DNA of 64,000 nucleotides from Streptomyces sp. TS71-3 (GTDB taxonomy: Bacteria; Actinomycetota; Actinomycetes; Streptomycetales; Streptomycetaceae), in contig NZ_BNEL01000003.1 in NCBI RefSeq assembly GCF_018327685.1, forward strand, positions 682,001-746,000. The letters run 5' to 3'. Position 1 is the first letter of the stretch. Each line of letters starts with the position of its first letter. The position numbers and the translations under genes are program-made. The notes below the pieces were generated by a model that saw only the letters and a list, made by a program, of their open reading frames with translations, was not told the origin of the DNA and did not search any database. Positions 28,813-30,453 of this stretch are shown here, piece after piece.

Positions 28813-29142
28813 GTGGCGCAGCGTGTTGTGGTCACCCTCTACGACGACATTGACGGAGGGGAAGCGGTGGAAACCATCGCCTTCGGCCTGGACGGCAAGT
28901 CGTACGAGATCGACCTCAATCCAGCCAATGCCAAGAAACTGCGTAAGGCCCTGGCCCCGTACATGCACGCCGGCCGCAAGGCCGCACGGGCCGCGAAGCA
29001 CCCGGCCAAGGTGCTGAAGTACACCTCGCTGACCGCGGACCCCGCGGCCGTCCGCGCCTGGGCCCGCTCGCACCGGATGGAGGTTCCGCCGCGCGGGCGG
29101 ATCCCCAAGAAGGTGTACGAGGCGTTCGAGGCGGCGAATTAG
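28813..29142 (+). CDS. Lsr2-like nucleoid-associated protein
   Basis: A 109-residue Lsr2/H-NS-functional homologue. The N-terminal dimerisation domain starts AQRVVVTLYDDIDGG and includes AFGLDGKSYEIDL. The C-terminal DNA-binding domain holds the AT-hook-like RGRIP near residue 95, which inserts in the minor groove of AT-rich DNA. Streptomyces usually has two paralogues, Lsr2 and LsrL; this purine-cluster copy is probably the second. Such proteins silence horizontally acquired and biosynthetic genes. GTG 28813 follows GAAGGGA. Confidence 0.9.
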   Translation: MAQRVVVTLYDDIDGGEAVETIAFGLDGKSYEIDLNPANAKKLRKALAPYMHAGRKAARAAKHPAKVLKYTSLTADPAAVRAWARSHRMEVPPRGRIPKKVYEAFEAAN

Positions 29143-29695
29143 TCCGGAGGGTCCGTTCCCGGTGGCCCGCTCCGCGGTGCCCGGCGGTCCCCCGCGATCC
29201 CCGGTCGTCCGCCCACTCTGACCGCCCTGCGGTCCCTGGTGGGCCTCTGCGGCGTCCGGCGCGAGCGGGTGCCGGCGGTTGCCGGCGGGCATTGCGGAGG
29301 TCGGCGGGCGTTGTCGAGTGCCGGTACGCGTACGCGGGTGTGTGCTGCGGCCTGATCGATGCCGCTGGGGCCGATCGGCGCGGGCCGTGCGGCGCGTGTG
29401 GTGCGGGCCGTGCGGTGCGGCCTGTGCGGCCTGTGCGGTGTGGTCGCACCGCGCGGTCCGCGCGGTGCGCGACGAGTCGTCGGGGAACCGGCCGTGCCCG
29501 GATCGTCGCCCGCCCGGCGTACGAACTCGGTTGCCGCGTACGCCCGGTGGCCCGCGGTCCGGCGGCCTGGGCAGCCGGGCAATCGAGCGTCTACCGGCTC
29601 GACTTGCGCAGCACCCCGGCTGATCAGTTAGAGTCTGGGCACACCGAGGGCGAGCCCGGGGCCGGAAGGCCAGGGCGTTTTCCTCGGAGTGTCTT
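29143..29695. other. Intergenic region before the glycine tRNA cluster
   Basis: About 550 bp, extremely G-rich on the plus strand with many GTGCGG/GGCCGTGC near-repeats at 29385-29460. No gene is supported. The less GC-rich end (29600-29690) probably carries the tRNA promoter. Confidence 0.45.
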
Positions 29696-29767
29696 GCGGG
29701 TGTAGTTCAGTAGTAGAACACCCCCTTTCCAAGGGGGAGGCGCAGTGTGCAATTCCTGTCACCCGCT
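29696..29767 (+). tRNA. tRNA-Gly (TCC) with degenerate T-arm
   Basis: Acceptor GCGGGTG/CACCCGC, D-arm GTTC/GAAC, anticodon arm CCCCC-TTTCCAA-GGGGG (anticodon TCC) and discriminator T are all sound. The T-arm is not: the stem strands CAGTG and CCTGT pair at only one or two positions, and the loop reads TGCAATT, so the universal GTTC is GTGC. In the D-loop (AGTAGTA) one of the invariant GG pair is A. Both changes weaken D-loop/T-loop contact and EF-Tu binding. This matches known staphylococcal peptidoglycan-dedicated tRNA-Gly species; that role here is inference. Confidence 0.85.
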
Positions 29768-29865: not shown

Positions 29866-29938
29866 GCGGACGTAGCTCAGTTGGTAGAGCGCAACCTTGC
29901 CAAGGTTGAGGTCGCGAGTTCGAGCCTCGTCGTCCGCT
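29866..29938 (+). tRNA. tRNA-Gly (GCC), copy 1
   Basis: Canonical 73-nt tRNA: acceptor GCGGACG/CGTCCGC, anticodon loop TTGCCAA, T-arm GCGAGTTCGAGCCTCGT-like with normal GTTCGA. It contrasts with the degenerate glycine tRNA just upstream. Confidence 0.96.
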
Positions 29939-29943
29939 CGGTC

Positions 29944-29977
29944 GAAACCCCGGTCCCGATGGGCCGGGGTTTCTTCG
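29944..29977 (+). terminator. Terminator of tRNA-Gly copy 1
   Basis: Stem GAAACCCCGG / CCGGGGTTTC followed by TTCG, 5 bp after the tRNA. Confidence 0.85.
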
Positions 29978-30372: not shown

Positions 30373-30445
30373 GCGGACGTAGCTCAGTTGGTAGAGCGCA
30401 ACCTTGCCAAGGTTGAGGTCGCGAGTTCGAGCCTCGTCGTCCGCT
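30373..30445 (+). tRNA. tRNA-Gly (GCC), copy 2
   Basis: Identical in sequence to 29866-29938, canonical cloverleaf with anticodon GCC. Confidence 0.96.
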
Positions 30446-30453
30446 CCACACAG

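Follow-up and report, generated by a model that had tools for sequence, protein, structure and literature searches.

In staphylococci, the glycine tRNAs that serve the cell wall carry a GUGC T-loop, and glycine requires a strong T-stem for binding by EF-Tu. In Staphylococcus aureus, non-proteinogenic tRNA-Gly(UCC) copies used for the pentaglycine bridge exist beside canonical UCC ones. These tRNAs are reported to avoid EF-Tu by having A49-U65 and A51-U63 as altered 49-65 and 51-63 pairs (PMC4052509; PMC9976931), to have no GG at 18-19 (PMC4052509), and to possess altered loops (PMC8007984). Another non-standard tRNA gene acting outside translation and with effects on the cell wall is tRNAOther of Bacillus cereus (PMC3399842). 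In Streptomyces coelicolor, FemX adds a single glycine branch (PMC4790382). According to PMC4052509, it is 'somewhat unclear in most instances' how Fem-type enzymes come by aminoacyl-tRNA in competition with translation. No paper giving a Streptomyces tRNA such a role was found among the top-ranked open-licence papers listed, a scope that makes this result a weak one. A preliminary description of the 64,000-nt stretch of Streptomyces sp. TS71-3 DNA analysed here (the window), which credited a FemX-type enzyme with the single-glycine bridge of Streptomyces, proposed that a tRNA-Gly(UCC) within it is dedicated to this enzyme.

An odd tRNA-Gly(UCC) and its T-arm

The odd tRNA gene occupies 29696..29767 on the plus strand, is 72 nt long with CCA not encoded, and was missed by ARAGORN, which called four other tRNAs in the window. 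The covariance-model scoring that the preliminary description had proposed recognizes it as a tRNA, with 56.6 bits against Rfam RF00005 (curated cut-off, 29 bits) and 104.5 bits against model R1. As first described, the window copy pairs at every position of its acceptor, D and anticodon stems, and the anticodon (29728..29730) reads UCC, as in 84/84 aligned copies. Two departures in the loops were also read correctly at the outset. The D-loop AGTAGTA (29709..29715) has A at 29712 in place of G18 and retains G19, thus lacking one of the two invariant G residues, and the T-loop UGCAAUU (29748..29754) has G at 29749 in place of U55, giving GUGC, the motif of the staphylococcal wall tRNAs, for GUUC. 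A18 and G55 occur jointly in 79/84 aligned copies, the window included, and G18 and U55 jointly in 5, which are of Embleya/Yinghuangia type; there is no mixed row. Glycyl-tRNA synthetase (GlyRS) recognizes the first three acceptor pairs, U73, C35 and C36. Judged by its sequence, the odd tRNA keeps these positions, with the glycine anticodon, G1-C72, C2-G71, G3-C70 and U73 retained; in the alignment, A3-U70 is found instead in the Streptacidiphilus-, Embleya- and Yinghuangia-type copies.

The T-stem, by contrast, had been described as destroyed, with one or two pairs left, which proves to be an error of register, since with one bulged U all five positions pair. The T-arm (29742..29759, plus strand) is GCAG-[U]-G / CCUGU, with the bulged U at 29746 and the pairs G49-U65, C50-G64, A51-U63, G52-C62 and G53-C61. 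In an alignment of 84 homologues, 37 of them distinct, the bulged register is paired in 100% of cells, each of the 37/37 distinct sequences having all 5 pairs, whereas the unbulged register pairs in 40% of cells and was rejected; the alignment was fitted to the bulged structure, yet 36/37 distinct rows are gapless, leaving little room for the fit to act. The stem is nearly invariant and hence offers little covariation of its own. Its sole change is G49 to A49 with the pair kept (4/37 distinct rows, three of Streptacidiphilus type plus locus L263), G-U being present in the window and in 33/37, and the 51-63 pair is A-U in 37/37.

The 9.79-Mb genome yields 61 tRNA matches, five of them inside the window; these five and 55 others were read, C3:116103-116185 (83 nt) being left out. 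The glycine tRNAs found are one canonical UCC, one CCC and three GCC, plus the odd UCC. The canonical UCC copy, whose existence the preliminary description had wished to see checked, lies at C1:3819696-3819766, so the odd one is not the sole reader of GGA. With the canonical UCC and CCC tRNAs the odd tRNA shares a 4-nt variable loop (AGGC) and U73, and its acceptor stem is identical to that of tRNA-Gly(CCC), whereas these two have GG18-19, GUUC and a T-stem that contains G51-C63 and has no bulge (GCGGG or GCGAG); G49-U65 and G51-C63 are found in the T-stems of all five other glycine tRNAs of the genome.

Like the S. aureus type, then, the odd tRNA is an extra UCC copy beside canonical ones, and in both G51-C63 has given way to A51-U63 and the G18/G19 region is changed. 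In S. aureus, however, both G18 and G19 are replaced (UU or CU), whereas here only G18 is changed to A, and the staphylococcal A49-U65 is answered in the window by G49-U65, a strong EF-Tu pair according to PMC4052509, which speaks against a function in the wall. The bulged U is a feature of the odd tRNA that sets it apart from the S. aureus type, as does its occurrence in actinobacteria, where it was found here in one family only and is absent from Kitasatospora-type genomes. With several tested features alike and two (G19 and G49-U65) different, the odd tRNA is not filed as a member of the S. aureus type on these sequence features. It also differs from B. cereus tRNAOther, which is expressed within a larger RNA (PMC3399842).

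Surroundings, conservation and distribution

Upstream of the gene lies a predicted promoter, TTGCGC (29604-29609) and TAGAGT (29629-29634), with a 19-nt spacer (29604..29634, plus strand), whose upstream box was assigned by eye. In the region 36-85 nt upstream, taken from 47 of the 84 aligned rows, TAGAGT is exact in 23 loci and TAnnGT occurs in 41 against 3.3 expected from shuffles; the loci are related and not independent, so these counts attest conservation and are not promoter proof. TAnnGT is missing in six loci, five of which are of Embleya/Yinghuangia type with a different upstream layout. These boxes are likely the promoter of the odd tRNA, which is probably expressed. In many loci, the leader that follows this promoter-like box up to the tRNA (29635-29695 in the window) often contains, by eye, a small hairpin of the GGCCGAAAGGCC type. 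Two canonical tRNA-Gly(GCC) genes follow downstream, as previously noted, at 29866..29939 (plus strand; ARAGORN; Rfam, 70.2 bits) and 30373..30448 (plus strand; ARAGORN). We infer co-transcription of the odd tRNA with the first of them, on whose 3' side a terminator-like hairpin followed by a T-rich stretch is predicted (29945..29975, plus strand). Directly upstream of the tRNA cluster is a 109-aa open reading frame (28813-29142), presumably a gene for an Lsr2-type nucleoid protein, flanked by what we take to be purS and purC.

A match spanning both the odd tRNA and the GCC gene that follows it was found in 101/101 same-genus genomes, own included, and all of the copies read, from 70 of these genomes (22 distinct sequences), have 72 nt, UCC, A18, GUGC and the T-stem with this bulge. 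The pattern TTCCAR..GTGCRA..CCNGC likewise matches in 40/40 same-genus genomes. Thus, of the proposal that GTGC and a broken stem are conserved across Streptomyces, the first part holds and the second does not, the stem being bulged and paired. A covariance model trained on 10 sequences and run over 121 family genomes finds a bulged-stem copy in 90, at 86.7 bits at least, the next best match scoring 72.5 bits; the 28 genomes of the same genus included in this set are all carriers. The 31 non-carriers, tallied by hand, comprise 27/27 genomes of genus group g14, 3/3 of g11 and 1/2 of g16, and the carriers include g2 and g5; the copies read there, in one genome of each, have normal loops. In eight g14 and three g11 genomes, the syntenic purS locus has two tRNA-Gly(GCC) and lacks the odd tRNA; the g16 genome G126 gave no purS match.

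Named relatives were obtained from a search whose query was purS from a g14 genome; of 512 loci, the best 80 were considered. Among these 80, 64 carry the odd tRNA, 61 of them with A18 and GUGC, while Yinghuangia soli, Embleya scabrispora and Streptomyces sp. SID3343 have the same bulged stem with normal GG and GUUC. Embleya and Yinghuangia are early branching. The odd tRNA is absent in 15, of which 11 bear the title Kitasatospora and the other 4 'Streptomyces sp.'; these 15 share 93-99% purS identity with the query, and one of them, L256, ends at a contig edge; a further locus, L253, gave no tRNA match whatsoever. The twelfth Kitasatospora-titled locus, '[Kitasatospora] papulosa' (brackets in the record title), has the odd tRNA. 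Given that purS identity reaches 96% in carriers from other genera, identity by itself cannot name g14, and we infer g14 to be Kitasatospora from identity combined with the fact that both lack the odd tRNA. Within the same 80 loci, the odd tRNA is found in tandem, with two copies in L270 and L289, three in L262, L290 and L303, and four in L291, and the tandem copies that were aligned retain the odd features. Tandem amplification is likewise seen in genomes G579, G192, G543 and G114.

In the 84-row alignment, the acceptor, D and anticodon stems contain compensatory changes at 8 pairs in 44 cells, the first anticodon-stem pair being lost in 3/37 distinct copies. From the genus-wide fixed traits, the compensatory changes, the recurrent promoter-like box and the tandem copies, the odd tRNA is judged to be under selection, and decay is rejected as an account of its sequence, in agreement with the preliminary description. 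The opposite reading, that a duplicated glycine tRNA gene is decaying, could point to the silence of ARAGORN, to the absence from Kitasatospora-type loci and to the lost anticodon-stem pair, and is scarcely credible against identical departures in 70/70 same-genus copies read, stems that otherwise keep pairing through double changes, and traits kept in tandem copies.

Beyond the family, the GUGC pattern matched in 16/354 genomes of other families against 32/354 for a reversed-pattern control counted by hand, which is at or below chance. Of the 17 outside-genus pattern matches, 12 had loci and were scored with the covariance model, reaching no more than 15.2 bits, and none of the 16 distinct outside-genus matched strings pairs at five T-stem positions. 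A GUGC tRNA-Gly(UCC) was therefore not found in these 354 genomes by a pattern that demands GTGC, which the Embleya/Yinghuangia form or other designs would escape. In six genomes picked from those outside the family that have FemAB, the glycine tRNAs read (24 of 36 model matches listed, plus 5 more) are all ordinary, with GTTC and GG, and include a UCC copy in 4/6; in G545 and G239, which belong to one genus of another family, no UCC glycine tRNA is among the matches read. A tRNA-like locus, L332, from genome G270 of a different family in the class, has an unusual acceptor stem, CATGGAG/CTCCATG, and an odd anticodon loop, CTGTTAC. The odd tRNA was not found in plasmids (near search) or phages (distant search), leaving spread on mobile elements unsupported. 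That these searches met it in a single family points to an independent origin.

FemAB proteins and glycine in the wall

The genome of TS71-3 (G000) has two FemAB-family genes, C3:864171-865277 (minus strand) and 882809-883888 (plus strand), about 18 kb apart. They are about 150-170 kb distant from the odd tRNA, which counts against a role of the latter in the wall. One of the two proteins was compared with solved structures and has S. aureus FemX (6snr) as its best PDB sequence match, followed by Weissella FemX; with the NCBIfam FemX model, both proteins score far below the cut-off of 500 bits (88.1 and 106.3 bits).

FemAB genes are present in 120/121 family genomes. By hand tally, 89 of the 121 have both the tRNA and FemAB, 1 the tRNA only, 31 FemAB only, and none neither. 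The lone carrier without a FemAB match, G121, is a draft of 410 contigs and is counted against a wall function. Strict coupling of the odd tRNA to FemAB fails, as all 31 non-carrier family genomes have FemAB. In the class, FemAB (PF02388) is found in 179/394 genomes, including 139/354 outside the genus, none of which has a GUGC tRNA-Gly(UCC) by the pattern, and this counts against a dedicated, required FemX tRNA. In Kitasatospora viridifaciens, the peptidoglycan is DAP(Gly) and UDP-MurNAc-pentapeptide-Gly was seen (PMC8092295, Table 1), a comparison made at genus level, as the absence of the odd tRNA comes from Kitasatospora-titled loci. Glycine can probably be added to the wall without the odd tRNA; since Kitasatospora-type genomes that lack it keep FemAB, and DAP-linked glycine has been published for a Kitasatospora wall, it is probably not obligatory for FemX. 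The distribution, as read from genome sequences, neither demands FemX as the client nor rules it out. The FemX-dedicated tRNA of the preliminary description thus stands in part: the conserved GUGC and D-loop, the second UCC copy, the FemX-like transferase and A51-U63 agree with it, whereas the notion that the tRNA is required or dedicated does not fit 31/121 family genomes that keep FemAB in its absence.

Proposed function and competing accounts

The alterations of the odd tRNA should, from their positions, weaken its use in protein synthesis. With barely better than even confidence, we propose that it is a selected, expressed glycine tRNA with weakened EF-Tu binding that would supply FemX-type transfer of glycine to peptidoglycan. 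GlyRS would charge it with glycine, EF-Tu would hold the charged form weakly, and the free Gly-tRNA would feed a FemX-type transferase that places a single glycine on the peptidoglycan stem peptide; the benefit would be more glycine for wall synthesis with no tRNA drained from the ribosome. This proposal draws support from the presence of a further UCC gene in a genome whose canonical glycine tRNAs are complete, from the signs of selection and expression given above, from FemAB in nearly all family genomes together with the S. coelicolor enzyme that adds the Gly branch (PMC4790382), and from A51-U63 and the altered G18/G19 region, both as described for S. aureus. It is opposed, beyond the points given above, by a report that Gly-tRNA without EF-Tu is exposed to D-aminoacyl-tRNA deacylase (PMC4880308).

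The odd tRNA could instead be a structural variant that reads GGA in translation, perhaps under particular conditions, with an altered elbow that is tolerated. UCC in all aligned copies, the intact acceptor, D and anticodon arms, a T-arm that pairs with a bulge, the adjoining normal tRNA-Gly(GCC) and the Embleya/Yinghuangia-type copies with normal loops all fit such a decoder, but a canonical UCC tRNA exists in its own genome and in 6/6 family genomes whose glycine tRNAs were read, the G18-U55 contact is gone on both sides in 79/84 copies, and 51-63 is invariably A-U, so that we consider it unlikely. Similarly improbable is a Gly-tRNA donor for a different transferase, in natural-product, lipid or protein-modification pathways, present in most of the family and not in Kitasatospora. 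The absence of the odd tRNA does not track FemAB, and Streptomyces use aminoacyl-tRNAs in several pathways (PMC4052509), but no Streptomyces-universal Gly-dependent enzyme was identified in a search that covered FemAB only.

A regulatory RNA or decoy, comparable to B. cereus tRNAOther and not an amino-acid donor, appears slightly less probable still. Its basis is the minimum-energy single-sequence fold, in which the T-arm is replaced by a GCGC-AGU-GUGC hairpin that is paired in 92.6% of cells. This hairpin loses one pair in 7/37 distinct rows, whereas the bulged T-stem is intact in 37/37, and as a full account it was rejected; the positions expected for glycylation are, moreover, retained. According to the folding model, the hairpin may be a second state of the odd tRNA. 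It is possible in the derived copies (window 29740-29750, alignment columns 45-55), and columns 45 and 54, which separate the Streptomyces form from that of Embleya/Yinghuangia, both carry changes that complete it.

Returning to the supply of glycine to the wall, the odd tRNA would be helpful and not obligatory, as Kitasatospora lost or never gained it. A history can be sketched tentatively, and we lean somewhat against its being right in full: a wall glycine tRNA of the Streptomycetaceae would have arisen independently of that of staphylococci, first with the bulge and A51-U63, a step still visible in Embleya and Yinghuangia, then with the joint loss of G18 and U55, followed by amplification in some species, up to four tandem copies, and loss in Kitasatospora. 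If the role in the wall is true, a tRNA gene conserved in a genus that has been studied intensively would have passed as an ordinary decoder, and Streptomyces would offer a direct genetic test of how aminoacyl-tRNA is supplied to Fem-type enzymes, with Kitasatospora as a natural knockout and Embleya and Yinghuangia as apparent intermediates.
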